From positions 2,602,001-2,666,000 of the forward strand of contig NZ_CP120368.1 in NCBI RefSeq assembly GCF_029892045.1: DNA of 64,000 nt. The letters are read 5' to 3'. The translations under genes were made by a program, and so were the position numbers. Source of the stretch: Sinorhizobium numidicum. Its GTDB lineage: Bacteria; Pseudomonadota; Alphaproteobacteria; Rhizobiales; Rhizobiaceae. The notes beneath the pieces are model-generated. The model saw nothing but the letters and a program-made list of their open reading frames with translations, was not told the origin of the DNA and did no database searches. This document shows, in pieces, positions 31,915 to 39,331 of the stretch; positions within the stretch are counted from its first letter, which is position 1; the number at the start of each line of letters is the position of its first letter.

Positions 31915-33222
31915 TCAGAAAACGCTGGCGGAGAGCCAGCCGCCCTCGAAGCCTGCCTTGCGCAGCCCATAGCGGAAAGCCGGAATGCTGGATGTGAGGT
32001 CCCAAAGCAAGCCGCTTCGCCAGTTTTCGATCATTATCACCGAGAGCCCCTGGTCAAGCCCGACGACGCTGTCGTCCACCCATCCCTCGGCGCCTTCACT
32101 CGGCAGGCTCGGATTGAAGCCTCCGGGGAGACGGTCGTCATTGAGCAACGCCGGATAGTGCGCCAGGAGATGGGAAAGGCCGCTCAGGCAGGCATCCGGA
32201 TCGAACGGCAAGCCGGCGAGCGATGCCCAGGGAACGAGCGTTCCGTCGTCGGCGCCGAAGGGCGCACCGCGGGCCGCATAGCCCAGCAATTTTTGCCATC
32301 GTCCGTCGCGAAGCTGCAACCAGCCCTTCGGCGCATGGCAGGCGCTGAAGCCCCAGAGATCGCGGCAATAGCCGGCGAAACCGTGGGGGTTCTCCTGCGC
32401 ATATGCGCGCTGAAGGGCGATCGCCCGGCGCGTGTTCTCGAAATAGTCGCTCGCCACCCTGCGCATCCCGGCATCGCGAAGAGCGCGGAAATCGATCCAT
32501 GCGTGGGGGAAAAGATGGATGAACAGCGCGCCGGCGTGAAGGTGCGGCATGCCGTCGAGCGTCAGCCATTCATGGGCGGCCGTAGAGGCTTCATAGGTCT
32601 CCGGCTCGATCGGATAGCTCGGCGAGCCGAGCGCCAGCACATAGAGTAGCAGCGCCTCGCTATAGCCGCACCACCGGTGCTTCAGGAAGCGGCCGGGCGG
32701 CCTCCATCCCATCGTCAGCGTATCGCCGCGATTGAGCGCCCAGGACCAATCCGCCCTTCCGTAGAGCCGCTCTGCAAGGCTCCGGATCTCCGCCTCGGCC
32801 TTCCCGCTTCCCGCAAAGTAGGCCGCAGCCGTCAGGACGCCGGCGAAGAGGAGCGCGCTGTCGATGGTCGAAAGCTCGCTGCGCCAAGTCCGCTCTCCGG
32901 TTCGCATATCGAGGAAATGATAGTAGAAGCCGCGATAGCCGGTTGCACGCGCGTCGCTCGCCTGCCTGCTGCTCTCGAAGAAACGCAGGGTCGTCAGCAC
33001 CCGCCGTGCCGCTTCGGCTCGTCCGATCCAGCCGCGCTCCACCGCGACCGGATAACAGGAGAGACCGAAGCCCGTCGCGGCGATGCTCGACGGCGAAGCT
33101 CGCCGCGACGTATCGGCCACGAGCCCGGTCCTCTGGTCTGAATATCGAAGGAAATAGCCGAACGCGGCGCGTTGCAGCCGGTCTACACGTGCGAAATACG
33201 AATTCGGCGTGGCGTGAACCAT
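31915..33222 (-). CDS. glucoamylase-family protein, GH144-like (putative beta-1,2-glucanase)
   Basis: About 435 residues. Motifs of the glycoamylase domain (PF10091): TGLVADTSRRASPSSIAATGFGLS near the N-terminus, RGFYYHFLDMRTGERTWRSELSTIDSALLFAG. Then WCGYSEALLLYVLALGSP, PHGFAGYCRDLWGFSACHAP and GWVDDSVVGLDQGLSVIMIENWRSG. GH144 members cut linear or cyclic beta-1,2-glucan, which rhizobia make. No signal peptide is seen, so it acts in the cytoplasm unless exported otherwise. The start is uncertain: ATG 33222, or GTG 33252 ten codons upstream. Followed on the same strand by the FhuF-like gene. Confidence 0.78.
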   Translation of the reverse strand: MVHATPNSYFARVDRLQRAAFGYFLRYSDQRTGLVADTSRRASPSSIAATGFGLSCYPVAVERGWIGRAEAARRVLTTLRFFESSRQASDARATGYRGFYYHFLDMRTGERTWRSELSTIDSALLFAGVLTAAAYFAGSGKAEAEIRSLAERLYGRADWSWALNRGDTLTMGWRPPGRFLKHRWCGYSEALLLYVLALGSPSYPIEPETYEASTAAHEWLTLDGMPHLHAGALFIHLFPHAWIDFRALRDAGMRRVASDYFENTRRAIALQRAYAQENPHGFAGYCRDLWGFSACHAPKGWLQLRDGRWQKLLGYAARGAPFGADDGTLVPWASLAGLPFDPDACLSGLSHLLAHYPALLNDDRLPGGFNPSLPSEGAEGWVDDSVVGLDQGLSVIMIENWRSGLLWDLTSSIPAFRYGLRKAGFEGGWLSASVF

Positions 33223-33270
33223 ATCGGCGTTCTGTTCGGTGACCGTGGTCACATTGGGGCGGCACCCGCC

Positions 33271-33332
33271 CTACAGCGCCGTGCGTCCTTTCAGACGCAC
33301 GAAGATCGTGTAGCACTTTGAATTGCTGCATG
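33271..33332 (-). repeat. dispersed palindromic repeat, family A copy 2 (inverted, partial)
   Basis: CTACAGCGCCGTGCGTC, then the AGACGCAC hairpin arm, then GTAGCACTTTGAATTGCTGCATG; reverse-complement of the end of copy 1, lacking the ATCGG-type first hairpin. The 33223-33519 gap otherwise shows no gene. Confidence 0.7.
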
Positions 33333-33519
33333 GAACGCATTGGCTTGGGTGATCACCGAATATTGTAAGTTTGCTCCGCCGCAACAGTCGCCGATTGCTG
33401 ATCCTGTGGTACATTCCTCTATGGCACTGATCCCAACGCCAAGTTCGATTTTCGCGAAGCGATACTCGGTAAGAGGGACAGAGCGTCCTGACGCTAAATC
33501 ATGATGATTGGCTGACGCG

Positions 33520-34311
33520 ATGTTGAACACGCTGGCATTGATCCTGGCTCTCAGTGGAAGCCCTATACAATCGGCGTTGCCCGCGGATGTCGACGTGGAA
33601 CTGGTGCTGGCGGTCGACATGTCCGGATCGATGGACATGGAAGAGGCGCGCGTGCAGCGCTCCGGCTATCTGCAGGCGCTGAGGCACCCGGATTTCATCA
33701 ACGCCGTCAAGGGCGGGTATCTCGGACGCATCGCCATCGGCTATTTCGAGTGGGCAGGGCTGGTAAACGAAGCCTCCGTCGTCACCTGGCAAGTGATCGA
33801 CAAAGCCGCCGACGCCGAAGCTTTTGCCGCCAAGCTCGAGGCCCGGCCGATCGGCACGCGGCGCGGCACCTCCATCTCGAATGCGATCCTCTTCGGCACG
33901 AACCTCATCGAATCCAACGCCTTTTCAGGAGCCCGGCGCGTCATCGACATTTCCGGCGACGGGCCGAACAATACAGGCCCGCCCGTGAACCCCGCCCGCA
34001 ATGACGCGGTGGAGCGCGGCATCGTGATCAACGGGCTCGCAATCCTCATCCGCCCATCAGTGTCGACGGGCCCCCTGGACCAATATTACGCGGAATGCGT
34101 CATAGGCGGCCCGGGCTCGTTCGTGCTCCCGGTACACGAGCCTGAGGATTTTGCGACCGCGATCCGCCAGAAACTGATCCTCGAGGTAAGCGGTGCGACA
34201 CCTGCGCCCATCCTTCGCCTCGCCGCGGTCGCGCCCACGGCAGACTGCCTGATTGGCGAAAAACTGCGACCTGGATTTCTCGATAGGGTTTATCCGGAAC
34301 TCGATCGGTAA
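33520..34311 (+). CDS. DUF1194 (von Willebrand factor A-like) secreted protein
   Basis: 263 residues. Signal peptide about 1-20 (LNTLALILALSGSPIQSAL). A vWA fold follows with MIDAS motif DMSGS at 33-37, ISGDGPNNTGPPV as the third metal-loop region, and RGTSISNAILFG containing the MIDAS threonine. Typical of the DUF1194 family of alphaproteobacteria; function unknown, likely metal-dependent protein binding in the periplasm. The ATG at 33520 is used; the in-frame TTG at 33508 is not needed. Not in an operon. Confidence 0.82.
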   Translation: MLNTLALILALSGSPIQSALPADVDVELVLAVDMSGSMDMEEARVQRSGYLQALRHPDFINAVKGGYLGRIAIGYFEWAGLVNEASVVTWQVIDKAADAEAFAAKLEARPIGTRRGTSISNAILFGTNLIESNAFSGARRVIDISGDGPNNTGPPVNPARNDAVERGIVINGLAILIRPSVSTGPLDQYYAECVIGGPGSFVLPVHEPEDFATAIRQKLILEVSGATPAPILRLAAVAPTADCLIGEKLRPGFLDRVYPELDR

Positions 34312-34332
34312 CGTGTTGCCGGGACAAATGCA

Positions 34333-34366
34333 AAGTCGCCGCACGGATCATCCGAGGCGGCGACTT
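34333..34366. terminator. terminator-like hairpin after the vWA gene
   Basis: AAGTCGCCGC at 34333-34342 pairs perfectly with GCGGCGACTT at 34357-34366. It lies 21 bases after the stop codon at the convergent junction with the small gene at 34404. Confidence 0.6.
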
Positions 34367-34403
34367 CCATGATTATTGCTGGCGACTGCCCCTCTTTTGC
34401 TGC

Positions 34404-34625
34404 TCACTGCAGGATGCGAGTGCGGGACTCGAAATCCGCCCCCGCAACGGTCAGCTCCCGTCGATCACGGAGTTCATTGGAGACGGCTTGCAGCGCCATT
34501 TCGACGCAATATTCCAGAGCCTGCGCATCCAGCGCCCGGGCACTATCGCGGATATAGGCCAGCATTCTCGCGATGCTGGCAAGTTCCGTCTCATGGTCAG
34601 TCGAAGTCGTAGCAAGATTGTTCAT
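34404..34625 (-). CDS. small conserved-looking protein of unknown function
   Basis: About 73 residues from ATG 34625 (GGGGGTTCAA before it); ATG 34637 is an alternative. Acidic and helical: MNNLATTSTDHETELASIA, RMLAYIRDSARALDAQALEY, MALQAVSNELRDRRELT. It lies 245 bases downstream of the YcaO gene on the same strand, separated by a family C repeat, so membership of that unit is doubtful. No family recognised. Confidence 0.5.
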   Translation of the reverse strand: MNNLATTSTDHETELASIARMLAYIRDSARALDAQALEYCVEMALQAVSNELRDRRELTVAGADFESRTRILQ

Positions 34626-34794
34626 TTGAACCCCCATTACGTGCTCTCGTTGGGGTGGAATATAAACGAATTTGGCGGTTCCGCGCGTTGCACGAGCGTT
34701 GCACACGTCATGGTCGTATTGCGTGTCGCTTTTCGCTTGCGGGGAATCAAAATTGCTGATCGTTTCGCGCGAAAATGGCCCTTCGTCCGGCCTG

Positions 34795-34858
34795 TCGACC
34801 AGCCCGCAAGCGGGGAGAAGGACACGCTTGGCAGGGCGCGGCTTGCCCCCTCTCCCTT
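34795..34858. repeat. dispersed palindromic repeat, family C
   Basis: GCAAGCGGGGAGAAGG / CCCCCTCTCCCTTC blocks just after the YcaO stop codon; the usual intergenic repeat position. Confidence 0.4.
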
Positions 34859-34870
34859 CTTAATCCCGCA

Positions 34871-36085
34871 TCATGAGAAGATCGCCTTCGAAAGCGCACG
34901 CGGTCCGAAACGGCGCGCCCTCTCGCCTTCCGGGTTCTCGAGATCCGGAACGAAAACCTTGACGACGGAAAACGGCAGACGCTCGCAAGACAATCGCACG
35001 GTAATAACGGATTGCGCTCCCGCTCCCTTGACGCAATCGAGGACATGGCCCAACAGGCCGCCGAGATCCATCCCGCCGTCCCGGGGTTCGGCCGCAACCG
35101 GTCGCGGCTCAGCGAGGAAGGCGCGTCGCGTAGATTCCGGCAAAGGCCGGTTGAAGGTTTCGGGATAGACGTCGTCCCGGGCGCCGCTGATATAGGTGAG
35201 CCGCGATTGCGCCGCCTCCGTCACCGCCCTGATCGCCGCCCGCACCGCCGAGAGATGCGCGCCGCTGCCGCTTGTCACCTCGACGAAGCGAACATGGCTG
35301 CGGATAGCCGTGTCACGTGGTCCCAGGAGAGCGAGAAAGCAGGGGATGTCCGTGTCGCAGCTTATATCGAAAAGTCGGAGATCCAGTTCCGCAGTTTTTA
35401 TGCGCTCAATCAAAGCGTTTAGCGCCGGATCGCCAAGTGTTTCAGGGGCGACACAAGCCTGATGACGAGCGTCCGAACCGGACACGCGCCACAGGGCATG
35501 CGCATCACGCTCGACCCGCTCCAGCAAGCCGTGCAGTATCGCCTCCTCGACTACATTTCCAGACGCTAGGCCATCCGACGACATCCAGAAACGTGAGGCC
35601 CGTGTACGGTCGAGCATGGCCGCTTCCAGCGGGACAAGCGTTTCACGGCCGGAAATCAGATCGACGCCGGCAACCCACTCGACTTCGTCATCCGGCCGGA
35701 TGTCTTCCTGGCCTGCGGCGATCAACCCGTCCAGCGTATTGAACATCCGTCCGGAGACCTGCAAATTGCGGGCCGTACCCACGATGGTTGCGACCGACGG
35801 CGCGCCGGCAACCGTACGTTCGAGGGCCTCCATCGTTGCGGAAGTTCTGGCATCCGCGTCCGACAGCCCTTTGCCTTGGGCGACCACGATCGACCGGGAG
35901 TTCGGCGTATAGGCGCACCAGACCGGGATCCCGACCTTGTCGAGCCCCGTATGCCGGGCGACGCGCGTCACGCCAAAGTCACCAAGCAAGGGTCGAACGC
36001 GGGCGAGCGTTTCCTCAGGGTTGCACGCCCGGTCGGAATAAACACCGTCCCCGTTCGCCCGTCTTTGGATCTCCAGGCTGATCAC
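34871..36085 (-). CDS. YcaO-family ATP-dependent enzyme
   Basis: 404 residues. YcaO ATP/Mg signatures: TSATMEALER (Ser82, Glu86, Glu89) after AQGKGLSDADA, and the helix EEAILHGLLERVERDA (Glu189, Glu192). The C-terminal VVKVFVPDLENPEG and RRFGPRALSKA are also typical. YcaO enzymes activate peptide amides with ATP to make azolines or thioamides. The C-terminus lacks the proline-rich tail of azoline-forming members, and no TfuA, E1-like or Ocin-ThiF partner is nearby. Its ATG overlaps the stop of the 71-residue gene by four bases. Last gene of a tightly packed unit. Substrate unknown; the coupled small protein is the first candidate. Confidence 0.85.
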   Translation of the reverse strand: MISLEIQRRANGDGVYSDRACNPEETLARVRPLLGDFGVTRVARHTGLDKVGIPVWCAYTPNSRSIVVAQGKGLSDADARTSATMEALERTVAGAPSVATIVGTARNLQVSGRMFNTLDGLIAAGQEDIRPDDEVEWVAGVDLISGRETLVPLEAAMLDRTRASRFWMSSDGLASGNVVEEAILHGLLERVERDAHALWRVSGSDARHQACVAPETLGDPALNALIERIKTAELDLRLFDISCDTDIPCFLALLGPRDTAIRSHVRFVEVTSGSGAHLSAVRAAIRAVTEAAQSRLTYISGARDDVYPETFNRPLPESTRRAFLAEPRPVAAEPRDGGMDLGGLLGHVLDCVKGAGAQSVITVRLSCERLPFSVVKVFVPDLENPEGERARRFGPRALSKAIFS

Positions 36086-36297
36086 CCGTCAAAATGGCCC
36101 GAGAACACCTCGTCAGCGGACGACACCGCCACCGCGAAGTCGACGCTTTTGATGACGGCGCCGCCCTTAGCGCGAAGACTGTTCGCGGTCGCCAGATCGC
36201 CCGTCACCGAATCGAGCGGCCTTACCGTCCCGTTGCCCAAGTCCGCCAGCCACAGGCCGGGTTCGCCGGGAATCCCAATCACAACAACTTTTGCCAT
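36082..36297 (-). CDS. 71-residue protein coupled to YcaO (possible substrate or partner)
   Basis: ATG at 36297 with GAGGGGCGAT before it. The frame is open further upstream, but that part overlaps the regulator gene. The protein begins MAKVVVIGIPGEPGLW and ends SSADEVFSGHFDG. It has no cysteine, six serines and three threonines, many glycines and a hydrophobic first strand. Stop overlaps the YcaO start (ATGA). Size and coupling are those of RiPP precursors, but I see no clear leader-core boundary. It may instead be a recognition partner. No family recognised. Confidence 0.6.
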   Translation of the reverse strand: MAKVVVIGIPGEPGLWLADLGNGTVRPLDSVTGDLATANSLRAKGGAVIKSVDFAVAVSSADEVFSGHFDG

Positions 36298-36317
36298 ATC
36301 GCCCCTCATGCCTCTGA

Positions 36318-38141
36318 TCAAAACCCCGCTTTTTTCAGTCCCTCGCGATAGAGGTCCTTCTGCCACTGCTCTTTCATCGGAACGACGGCAAGCCACTTGT
36401 CGACATCGAAGCTCGGATTGATCTTCAAAGCCCGCATCCTATGCGCTCGAGCTTTCTTGCGGTTCCCGAGCATCGCCCAGCTCGCCGCAACGATCCTGTC
36501 CCCCGGCGTCTTGTCTTTCATCCTTTGCGCAAAGCCGATTGCCTCCTCGTATTGCCCGAGGAAATAGCTGGCACCCGCCGCGCTCCAGAGATAGGCGTCC
36601 GGCGCCAGCGGATTGAGCGAAAGCGCCTTGCCGAGCTTCTCGAGGGCCTCGGCCGGGCGGGCGGCGTGAACGAGGGTATCGGCGTGGCTATAGAGCACGT
36701 CGGCGTAATGCGGGCTTAGCTGTTCGGCCAGATCCAAGGCAGCGAGGCTTTCGTCCAAATCGCCCTGATAGAGCTTCACCACACCCAATTCGCGGTGTGC
36801 GGCAGGAAGCTGTTCGTTGCTTTGCATCGCCCCCCTCGCATGGCGCTCGGCAAGCGACAGAAGATCGTTGTTACCCTGCGCGGTCAAAAGCCATTCGGTC
36901 GCATAGGTTCGCGATATTCCGCTCAAGGCCGGCGCGAAATCCGGCTTGAGCCTGATTGCGTCGCGGAAGTCACGACGGGCCCTGCGAACGTCCGGCAAGC
37001 CGAGACCGGACAGATGGCGCAACCCGCCGAGATAGGCGTAGTAGGCCTCCGGATGCGCCGCGTAATCCAGGTGCTCCGCCTGCCCCCTCTCGACCTGCTC
37101 CGTCACCGCACGCGCGACATGATAGGCGATTTCCTGGCGCTGCTGTATCAGCCCCACAGGCGAGATCGTGAAGCGGTCCGCCCATATGATTTCGTCGGAG
37201 GGAAGAAAGATAAGCTGCGTGAAAAGCCCCTGGTCCGAAAGGCGACAATCGAGCGCGTAGGTGACGCCATGTTTCTGAAGGAACGCGGCCTTGTCCGCCG
37301 CGTCGCGAATTCGCTCGGCGGTGTAGGGCGCGACAACCGACATCGAACGCAGCGAACAGAGCCCGATCGTGATGTCCTCGATCACCGCGACGCTGACGGT
37401 GTGAAGCGTTGGGTCGCCGCCGAGCGCGGCAGGCGGAAGCAATGCGACGCGCGGCAACGGCGGGGCGGCGGGCGAAGCGCCTTCCACCGTCTCCCCGACG
37501 AATGCGGTCGGCTGCAGCAACACTCTGGCTGGCGTGCGGCCACCGTTCAGCAGTTGGCCGTGGCCGACGCGTTCCAGGATTTCCAGAACGGCCGTGTCGG
37601 CCGGGTCGAGTTCGAGGAGATGCGCGCAGGCTGAGCGCAGCATCGACCTGTCGGCGAAGCGCTCTTCTGCATCGATGAGCGCCTTGCGCAGCATTTCTGT
37701 GAAACCCTGCCGCTTCCGCATGATCCAGTCCGTGTACCGGCCAGCCGGCAGGTCCGCCGAAGCCAGAAAAGACTCCCGCCAAAGCGCCAGGGCTTTGCGG
37801 AAGGTCTCCTCGGAGCCGCCCAGCGCGTCGAACCCAGACACGTCGCAAGACAATGTCCCCAGCGCCACCTCGCTCTCTATCGAGGCAAGCAGCGGTCCGT
37901 CGGCTGTCGCAAGGTGCCGCATGCGCCAGAGGGTGGAACGCAGGTTCTTGAAGGCGACGCTCTTTTCCCGGTCGGGCCAGATCAGCGTCGCGAGCTTCTC
38001 GCGAGAGGCCGTTTTCTGTTCCGACACACACAGGTAAGCGAGGATCAGCAGGCCCCGCTCCGGACACGCCGCAACCCCGCCGCTGGAGTCGACCAGCCGC
38101 AGTTCCCCGAATGTCTGTAGGTGATAGCCCCCGCCTACCAT
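36318..38141 (-). CDS. SARP-like transcriptional regulator with BTAD, TolB-like and TPR domains
   Basis: 607 residues. The N-terminal winged helix (about 5-95) is LQTFGELRLVDSSGGVAACPERG and later LIWPDREKSVAFKNLRSTLWRMR. A BTAD-type helical domain follows (about 105-200, ALALWRESFLASADLPAG, LRSACAHLLELDPADTAVLEIL). Next is a TolB/FlgO-like fold (about 230-350, VSVAVIEDITIGL, YALDCRLS, EIIWADRFTIS), then about seven TPR units to the end. This layout is common in rhizobial regulators of unknown target. It ends 20 bases before the 71-residue gene, so it is most likely in the same operon and may control it. Confidence 0.8.
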   Translation of the reverse strand: MVGGGYHLQTFGELRLVDSSGGVAACPERGLLILAYLCVSEQKTASREKLATLIWPDREKSVAFKNLRSTLWRMRHLATADGPLLASIESEVALGTLSCDVSGFDALGGSEETFRKALALWRESFLASADLPAGRYTDWIMRKRQGFTEMLRKALIDAEERFADRSMLRSACAHLLELDPADTAVLEILERVGHGQLLNGGRTPARVLLQPTAFVGETVEGASPAAPPLPRVALLPPAALGGDPTLHTVSVAVIEDITIGLCSLRSMSVVAPYTAERIRDAADKAAFLQKHGVTYALDCRLSDQGLFTQLIFLPSDEIIWADRFTISPVGLIQQRQEIAYHVARAVTEQVERGQAEHLDYAAHPEAYYAYLGGLRHLSGLGLPDVRRARRDFRDAIRLKPDFAPALSGISRTYATEWLLTAQGNNDLLSLAERHARGAMQSNEQLPAAHRELGVVKLYQGDLDESLAALDLAEQLSPHYADVLYSHADTLVHAARPAEALEKLGKALSLNPLAPDAYLWSAAGASYFLGQYEEAIGFAQRMKDKTPGDRIVAASWAMLGNRKKARAHRMRALKINPSFDVDKWLAVVPMKEQWQKDLYREGLKKAGF

Positions 38142-38261
38142 GGAAGCCTCAGCCGCTCGAAGGGCCTGGAGCCCCGCCCCTGGCGGCCAGTCGAACGACC
38201 GGCTGCCGGTTAGCGCTCTGCGATTTGAACATCACCACTTTGTCTATGCCCCCTCTTTCCC

Positions 38262-38543
38262 TCAAGCGAATGTCGAAAGATCGGTCACATCACGCAATCC
38301 GCCGCCGGTCGATGGCGGTGAATTTTTGAAGAAGAAGGAAAAGTGTACGTCGAGAACGTCCGCAATATCATGCAGCCGGCTCGCGGACACCCGATCGACA
38401 CCCTCTTCGTATTTCCGGATCTGCCCAGGCGCGACACCCAGCGCACCGGCAAGCCCGTCCTCGCTCATTCCCAACATGGTGCGGCGAAACCGAATGCGAC
38501 CACCGACAAAAATGTCGATGGGATTGGGCGAGGTAAAACCCAT
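38262..38543 (-). CDS. XRE-family helix-turn-helix protein
   Basis: 93 residues. HTH_3 fold: FVGGRIRFRRTMLGMSEDGLAGALGV, then APGQIRKYEEGVDRVSASRLHDIADVLDV, ending with FSFFF and a disordered tail (PPSTGGG). Similar small XRE proteins are frequent in rhizobia. GGAGGCGCAG precedes the ATG at 38543. It lies 120 bases upstream of the SARP-like regulator on the same strand and may control the unit. Confidence 0.82.
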   Translation of the reverse strand: MGFTSPNPIDIFVGGRIRFRRTMLGMSEDGLAGALGVAPGQIRKYEEGVDRVSASRLHDIADVLDVHFSFFFKNSPPSTGGGLRDVTDLSTFA

Positions 38544-38731
38544 CTGCGCCTCCGCATGATCCGATGGCTGCCCCTTCTTTGAGGATGCTTGAAAAACGGA
38601 GACGTTGCAACTCGCAGCTTTGGGCGATGCACAGGGTTCTCGTCATGGAGGGCGTCCATGGCTAGAGGCACAGCACATCGTCTTGGGGATCCGGCCGGCT
38701 CAATGCGCGTGGGGCTCGAGGCAATATCGTT

Positions 38732-38792
<61 letters not shown>

Positions 38793-38873
38793 CTGTCGCA
38801 GGTTTCCCGGCGGATAGCCACCGCTCCCCGCAGCCGTTCTATCCGCCGGGTCGATCGTTCGGGGACCGCCCGG

Positions 38874-39287
38874 TTACCATGACCTCCAACCACTCGACCA
38901 GTAACGCCCCTTGAGATCGCTGAGGCGGTCTTCAAGGTCCGCAATGATGTCCTCGAGACGCGAGGATCGCCGCATCGGCCAATATGAATATGAACGGCTG
39001 GTACTTGCAATGAGCAGCCCGGCCACGGCCATTAACGCGAGTGCGGTCCAAGCCGGATGTTCCCTCGCCATTTCGCCTGTCCTGCGGCCCGTGTCCATGA
39101 CCCTGGTGGCGACGGCTCTACCGGACGGAATCTCCAGGTCGGAGAGCATGTCTTTGAGCGAGTCGACCTGCTCGCGAAGCCACTGAACCTGCTCCTCGAT
39201 CGGCTGCTCCGGAACACCGACCTTGCCGGTCTTCGTATCGACCACCCCACGGGGCACCGCGGCACCGAGTTCATTCTTATCTGCCAT
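38874..39287 (-). CDS. small membrane protein, ElaB/YqjD-like
   Basis: 137 residues from ATG 39287 (GGAGG nine bases before). An amphipathic helical/coiled segment (EEQVQWLREQVDSLKDMLSDLE) is followed by one membrane helix (WTALALMAVAGLLIAS) and a short cytoplasmic coiled tail (SSRLEDIIADLEDRLSDLKG). The pattern is that of ElaB/YqjD/DUF883 proteins, which can tether ribosomes to the membrane in enterics; that role is not shown here. An earlier ATG at 39314 lacks a good ribosome site. Confidence 0.7.
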   Translation of the reverse strand: MADKNELGAAVPRGVVDTKTGKVGVPEQPIEEQVQWLREQVDSLKDMLSDLEIPSGRAVATRVMDTGRRTGEMAREHPAWTALALMAVAGLLIASTSRSYSYWPMRRSSRLEDIIADLEDRLSDLKGRYWSSGWRSW

Positions 39288-39331
39288 TATCCTGATCCTC
39301 CAAATCGAGCCCATTCCAAAGGTCTGGGCGA

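Follow-up and report, generated by a model that had tools for sequence, protein, structure and literature searches.

A rhizobial YcaO cassette without its TfuA gene, probably the larger half of a split peptide-modification system

The comparison of gene layout, phylogeny, and sequence profiles is applied here to four packed genes in a 64,000-nucleotide stretch of Sinorhizobium numidicum (assembly GCF_029892045.1, contig NZ_CP120368.1, positions 2,602,001 to 2,666,000; hereafter the window). They encode an XRE-type regulator, a SARP-like/TPR regulator, a 71-residue protein, and a YcaO enzyme, and together they are a widespread rhizobial five-gene cassette minus its last gene, TfuA. On balance, we favor the interpretation that these genes form the larger half of a split TfuA-YcaO system for a ribosomally synthesized and posttranslationally modified peptide (RiPP), in which a backbone thioamide would be formed by a YcaO and a TfuA of different lineages acting in trans.

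In this scheme, the conserved N-terminal leader of the 71-residue protein would be recognized by the enzymes, and its last ~22 residues would constitute a single core. YcaO would activate a core backbone amide with ATP, the TfuA encoded on a second contig (C1) would supply sulfide to give the thioamide, and the two regulators would control expression. The mechanism is drawn by analogy with the thiovarsolins and with methyl-coenzyme M reductase (McrA). We infer joint action of the precursor, the window YcaO, and the C1 TfuA and a thioamide as the product; the place of the thioamide and the parts played by the two regulators are proposed in the same spirit.

A widespread cassette minus its last gene

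Related loci were fetched by YcaO similarity (the best 80 of 101), and relatives of the XRE, the SARP-like/TPR regulator (sarp), the small protein, and TfuA were sought in each. The order xre-sarp-small-ycaO-TfuA is present in 53 of the 80 loci, and TfuA lies directly after YcaO in 60. Seven loci have xre-sarp-small-ycaO without TfuA, and one combines a window-like layout with an upstream, reversed TfuA. The others read sarp-small-ycaO (five, including L040, a 3.6-kb contig that starts within the regulator), xre-ycaO-TfuA (seven, one of them with two xre), xre-ycaO (six), or ycaO alone (one). In the 53 full cassettes, the end of the small gene falls 226 to 304 bases past the regulator stop, and no more than 87 bases then remain up to the YcaO match, a spacing that leaves no room for a further gene, so that the small gene is the only one between regulator and YcaO. 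Agreeing with the cassette, YcaO and a TfuA-like gene share a 4-base overlap on the annotated plasmid of Rhizobium sp. CCGE532. The short form without TfuA is common to the relatives nearest to the window (YcaO 68 to 74% identical, titled Sinorhizobium or Ensifer), and the complete cassette is found in other species named Ensifer or Sinorhizobium, such as S. terangae (L101) and S. psoraleae (L098).

In the related loci L048 and L056, short stretches between XRE and YcaO resemble, by eye, the regulator start and the small-protein start, which would fit a deletion of both genes. In a tandem cassette on plasmid pC5.7c of R. rhizogenes (L117, 7618 to 8217), the first YcaO is followed by TfuA pieces in different frames.

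An unpaired TfuA on a separate contig

In the S. numidicum genome, matches over cut-off number exactly two for YcaO and two for TfuA. The TfuA matches lie at C1:1167780 and C2:2398181, and the window cassette, at C2:2636874-2638297, has no TfuA next to its YcaO. One YcaO and one TfuA adjoin on C2, which leaves both the window YcaO and the C1 TfuA unpaired. C1 and C2 are separate contigs and presumably separate replicons. The unpaired TfuA (C1:1167642-1168364) begins 113 bases after an XRE of 151 residues, which shares 87 to 90% identity with its counterparts in seven complete Ensifer/Sinorhizobium cassettes (L088, L089, L091, L095, L097, L098, and L101). The sequence-only reading of this DNA had described the usual YcaO partners as absent; this holds locally, as TfuA is not adjacent and no E1-like protein, dehydrogenase, or exporter was found among seven scanned proteins, but it fails for the genome as a whole, which encodes TfuA elsewhere.

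Phylogeny suggests different origins for the two halves. The C1 TfuA falls in a 17-row group (Shimodaira-Hasegawa-like approximate likelihood ratio 99) made up of itself, nine XRE-TfuA units, and the same seven complete cassettes, in a tree that carries no bootstrap and has some long branches outside this group. The window YcaO forms one group with 12 relatives (support 100), nested (99) with Rhizobium-type cassettes to the exclusion of four of the seven Ensifer/Sinorhizobium cassettes, these four being the members in the thinned set. Because the two trees, both from quick searches, place the halves with different cassettes, the window YcaO and the C1 TfuA seem to derive from different cassette lineages.

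The same arrangement recurs among relatives. Twenty loci have no TfuA directly after YcaO, and the 19 corresponding genomes searched (L040 was left out) all encode TfuA elsewhere. In 16 of these the best TfuA is intact and has no YcaO in the fetched stretch of ~1.5 kb on each side; nine of the 16 occur as XRE-TfuA, six are divergent from a regulator, and one is divergent from the cassette's own XRE. YcaO, the small protein, and TfuA are under purifying selection, with ratios of nonsynonymous to synonymous substitution (dN/dS) of 0.12 to 0.29 in 16 pairwise comparisons within the window's group (YcaO, 0.18 to 0.29; TfuA, 0.19 to 0.29; small protein, 0.12 to 0.26; dS of ~1 versus the window).

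The small protein as a probable precursor

The family of the small protein comprises 52 database proteins, the window's own included; together with the low dN/dS, this sets it well apart from a chance reading frame. The protein has no Pfam or NCBIfam match, hence no known unrelated domain of the kind that would have spoken against the role suggested by the sequence-only reading. It is encoded in at least 45 of 297 Rhizobiaceae genomes (the family sample), a lower bound, as a profile later found it in G212, G266, G063, and G149 as well. All 43 genomes with the window YcaO class (at least 320 bits, a limit placed at the score gap from 321.6 to 259.2) also encode the small protein, and in the other two of the 45 it stands beside a YcaO of 219 to 231 bits. 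A YcaO lies within 500 bases in 46 of the 50 places where the small protein was found in this sample. The sequence-only reading had named homologues without YcaO as refuting evidence; the remaining four places are away from YcaO, all in genomes that encode the window YcaO class elsewhere, and one plasmid also carries small-protein genes without an adjacent YcaO. Conversely, the 14 genomes with a YcaO locus without the small protein all encode one elsewhere. In the class sample of 385 genomes, the A1 profile found it in the S. numidicum genome only. Rhizobial kinship makes these genome counts less independent than they look.

The assignment as precursor rests on a second protein type found directly before YcaO-TfuA in L136, L137, and L117, in which a leader of the window type is followed by three, two, and three units, respectively, resembling DLAVGFEPKEAAFSGHVYRTP. 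A profile of those three precursors retrieves 33 proteins, of which 29 are long and four are single-core proteins of 71 to 72 residues. The unit mark F[SAG][GSAD] is present in two copies in 11 of the long precursors, in three copies in 16, and in four copies in two. The 33 proteins contain FSGH 31 times, whereas 2000 shuffles average 0.029 occurrences and never have more than 1. The leader profile, covering residues 1 to 30 of the small protein, scores 39.7 to 42.3 bits on the three repeat precursors, compared with 6.9 for the best of 2000 shuffles. The core profile, covering the last 22 residues, scores 29.1, 24.8, and 13.3 bits on their whole repeat regions, where the best shuffles reach 13.9, 8.6, and 12.9 (3000 shuffles per precursor, none reaching the score in any of the three). 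The window protein is the sole match of the repeat-precursor profile in its own genome (E value 3.0e-9). With residues 1 to 30 matching the leader and the C-terminal 22 matching the repeated core unit, the small protein is probably a precursor peptide with a leader and a single core. The C-terminal core that the sequence-only reading proposed to look for is thereby supported at the sequence level, and where the sequence-only reading had left a choice between substrate and recognition partner, substrate is the probable role.

Other candidate precursors occur in related positions. A different short peptide lies between regulator and YcaO-TfuA in G106, G236, and G178, and L231, L232, and L235 have the order regulator, short peptide ending in NATSNIVHAVRFR, YcaO, and TfuA. 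The peptide of these three loci is another candidate precursor, of a different sequence but beside a regulator of the same kind.

The YcaO enzyme and the likely chemistry

The window YcaO matches PF02624 at 225.7 bits (cut-off 25.7; E value 1.2e-66). Its best NCBIfam model is TIGR03266 (McrA thioamidation), at 194 bits and thus under the cut-off of 365, and its best match in the PDB is the archaeal YcaO MJ1094 (E value 1.2e-30, 110 bits, residues 17 to 389), against 32 bits for PDB chain 6ci7, which is named YcaO and which we take to be the E. coli enzyme. As most relatives align from about residue 16 onward, the true start may lie downstream of the annotated GTG.

The sequence-only reading had considered an oxazoline or a thioamide, and of the two, the thioamide appears likelier, as a TfuA is present elsewhere in the genome. 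It had also pointed to a protein without cysteine but with serines and threonines. Cysteine is indeed lacking, but a serine/threonine basis is doubtful: the motif FSGH reads FAGH in five of the seven sequences compared, and the replacement of this serine by alanine speaks against a serine-derived azoline. Gly67 of the small protein is invariant in the 31-row alignment and is therefore one candidate modification site. Azoline chemistry was rejected on the grounds that the core serine is not conserved and that no E1-like/Ocin-ThiF partner or dehydrogenase, as would mark an azol(in)e-forming system, was found among the seven window proteins scanned against Pfam and NCBIfam (31915 to 39314).

Weighing the alternatives

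Several observations weigh against a split system with the small protein as its substrate. Taken singly, core copies do not rise above shuffled sequences (highest score, 8.3 bits, against 11.2 for the best shuffle). The AlphaFold model of the small protein (pLDDT, the predicted local distance difference test, of 66.8) suggests some fold, and its leader half is well conserved. Some genomes hold a regulator-linked single-core protein together with a second precursor directly before YcaO-TfuA. In G212, G063, G266, and G149, the gene before YcaO looks leader-like by eye and continues into a different core, which two of the four carry as a repeat; the leader profile supports G149 (12.3 bits), gives weak support to G212 and G063, and does not show G266, and the core profile gives no support in any of the four. 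The unpaired TfuA of G702 has an in-frame stop, and the best TfuA of G692 and of G694 belongs to a small-YcaO-TfuA set and is thus paired with another YcaO. A YcaO-like tail with a stop codon overlapping the start of the C1 TfuA might point to the loss of a YcaO; a free search is not significant (706 of 5000 shuffles are as good for L088), anchoring at the stop codon leaves 2 of 20000 shuffles in a test chosen after the tail had been seen, and no such tail was seen in the eight other XRE-TfuA units inspected up to the TfuA start. Finally, neither a protease nor an exporter was found among the seven scanned window proteins.

Part of this evidence would fit a single-core protein that is the regulator's partner, or a recognition protein of YcaO, while YcaO-TfuA modify another peptide. 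The small protein does keep its regulator neighbor: among the 80 loci, each of the 66 with the small protein has a relative of the regulator next to it, the regulator is adjacent on the same strand in all 30 fetched loci of the 50 small-protein places, and it is adjacent in 15 of 17 small-protein places in genomes whose YcaO locus is without the small protein (one regulator is broken). An R. tumorigenes plasmid (L118) carries the regulator with two small-protein genes and a metallo-beta-lactamase-fold hydrolase behind it; the fetched stretch contains no YcaO, and the plasmid gave no TfuA match. The genomes with an additional precursor before YcaO-TfuA point the same way. We nevertheless regard this explanation as unlikely, given that the small gene is alone between regulator and YcaO in the full cassettes, that the profile search found no repeat-type precursor in the S. 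numidicum genome, and that the C terminus of the small protein belongs with the repeated core unit. A bolder reading of the locus, which we rate as rather unlikely, would make the modified peptide a signal read by the adjacent TPR regulator, with the thioamide as a stabilizing mark; its makers, YcaO and TfuA, would stem from two cassette lineages and lie on separate contigs. Such a receptor-pheromone pair would follow the logic of RRNPP systems, in which regulator and peptide act as receptor and pheromone.

It could also be speculated that YcaO acts on the small protein without TfuA, introducing an azoline or another modification. TfuA does lie outside the window cassette, and some YcaO enzymes are described in PMC6511847 and PMC13063428 as forming thioamides without it. 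The missing E1-like or dehydrogenase partner, the alanine in place of the FSGH serine, the lack of cysteine, and the retention of TfuA by relatives, whether adjacent or elsewhere, make this improbable. More improbable still is a decaying remnant without function, even though the window XRE is short, the pieces are scattered, and an upstream XRE was undetected in L037 and in four regulator-small-YcaO loci (the fifth, L040, starts within the regulator); the low dN/dS ratios of YcaO, TfuA, and the small protein and the intact window frames contradict it.

Comparison with known systems

The split system favored here has its closest parallels among TfuA-YcaO RiPPs, which are already known and of which the window would represent a split form. 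The thiovarsolin family, as presented in the portion of PMC6511847 consulted, likewise combines YcaO, TfuA, and a precursor with its core present once or repeated (from no repeat up to five), and no specific protease is given there for its cluster, just as none was noticed at the window. The window differs in its precursor, in its XRE and SARP-like/TPR regulators, and in the separation of TfuA from YcaO. The McrA thioglycine-forming YcaO-TfuA of methanogens shares TIGR03266 with the window enzyme as best NCBIfam model, although the window score is under its cut-off and the McrA substrate is a large enzyme rather than a precursor peptide; in a Methanosarcina tfuA mutant, thioamidation was restored by plasmid-borne tfuA (PMC5589413, in part). 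Backbone thioamidation by YcaO, as proposed for the window, is also reported for uL16 by the E. coli enzyme, which differs in using no TfuA and a ribosomal protein as substrate; the same source describes TfuA as a hydrolase employed to deliver sulfide (PMC13063428).

An antiSMASH survey counted over 500 TfuA-YcaO clusters in Rhizobium (PMC8120280), and these probably include the complete form of the window cassette. That survey chose adjacent YcaO and TfuA, and a split locus such as the window's would not qualify. No name for the layout XRE-SARP-small-YcaO was found in the literature searched, which covered parts of the sources above. What the sequence-only reading had taken for a possibly undescribed cassette is thus indeed a modification cassette with a layout not named in that literature, but as a shortened form of a widespread one. 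Our analysis provides a set of rhizobial TfuA-YcaO clusters with a precursor family that has no match in Pfam or NCBIfam, predicts the position of the core within it, and suggests that the two partners of a RiPP enzyme pair may be encoded apart and differ in lineage. Such loci would escape cluster searches in which YcaO and TfuA must be adjacent.

Features of the locus

The packing of the four minus-strand genes is as described from the sequence alone, with 20 bases between regulator and small gene and four bases (GTGA) shared by small gene and YcaO; a further 120 bases separate the XRE end from the regulator start. All four reading frames are intact.

Table 1. Window positions of the cassette genes and of the proposed parts of the small protein
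Feature	Position	Strand	Details
XRE-type (Cro/CI) regulator	38262..38543	-	93 residues; Pfam HTH_3 1.8e-9; 46 of 93 aligned residues identical to C1 XRE
SARP-like/TPR regulator	36318..38141	-	607 residues; Pfam TPR_2 1.7e-10; AlphaFold pLDDT 82.2
Small protein, proposed precursor peptide (leader and one core copy)	36082..36297	-	71 residues; 51 other family proteins
Proposed leader, residues 1-30 of the small protein	36208..36297	-	leader-profile match to repeat precursors (39.7-42.3 bits)
Proposed core, residues 50-71 (KSVDFAVAVSSADEVFSGHFDG)	36085..36150	-	core profile compared with repeat regions
YcaO enzyme, class usually with TfuA behind	34871..36085	-	404 residues, GTG start; PF02624 1.2e-66

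The regulator had been read as a SARP/BTAD-TolB-TPR protein. Its TPR part is clear by Pfam, whereas SARP/BTAD and TolB have no Pfam match in the window protein, and Trans_reg_C appears, at an E value of 0.098, in one of the 12 members of the regulator alignment. Reading the secondary structure of the AlphaFold model gives a winged-helix-like N terminus, helical and alpha/beta parts, and TPR helices; Foldseek with this model had TPR proteins among the matches listed and did not clarify the N terminus. The window XRE, at 93 residues, is shorter than the 151-residue XRE beside the C1 TfuA. Inverted repeats were sought before XRE genes in those seven of sixteen named loci that gave an upstream stretch; none was found before the window XRE, and some loci have 7-base arms.

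Just upstream of the C1 XRE, a perfect, operator-like 9-base inverted repeat, ATTCGAGCA/TGCTCGAAT, is present (L119, 4020 to 4055; G000 C1). A 357-base frame in L115 (3328 to 3684) is labeled an OXA-type resistance gene by PLSDB at 100% identity, perhaps an annotation artifact. In the window itself, a perfect (GA)29 tandem repeat occupies positions 38733 to 38790, ~190 bases upstream of the XRE start.

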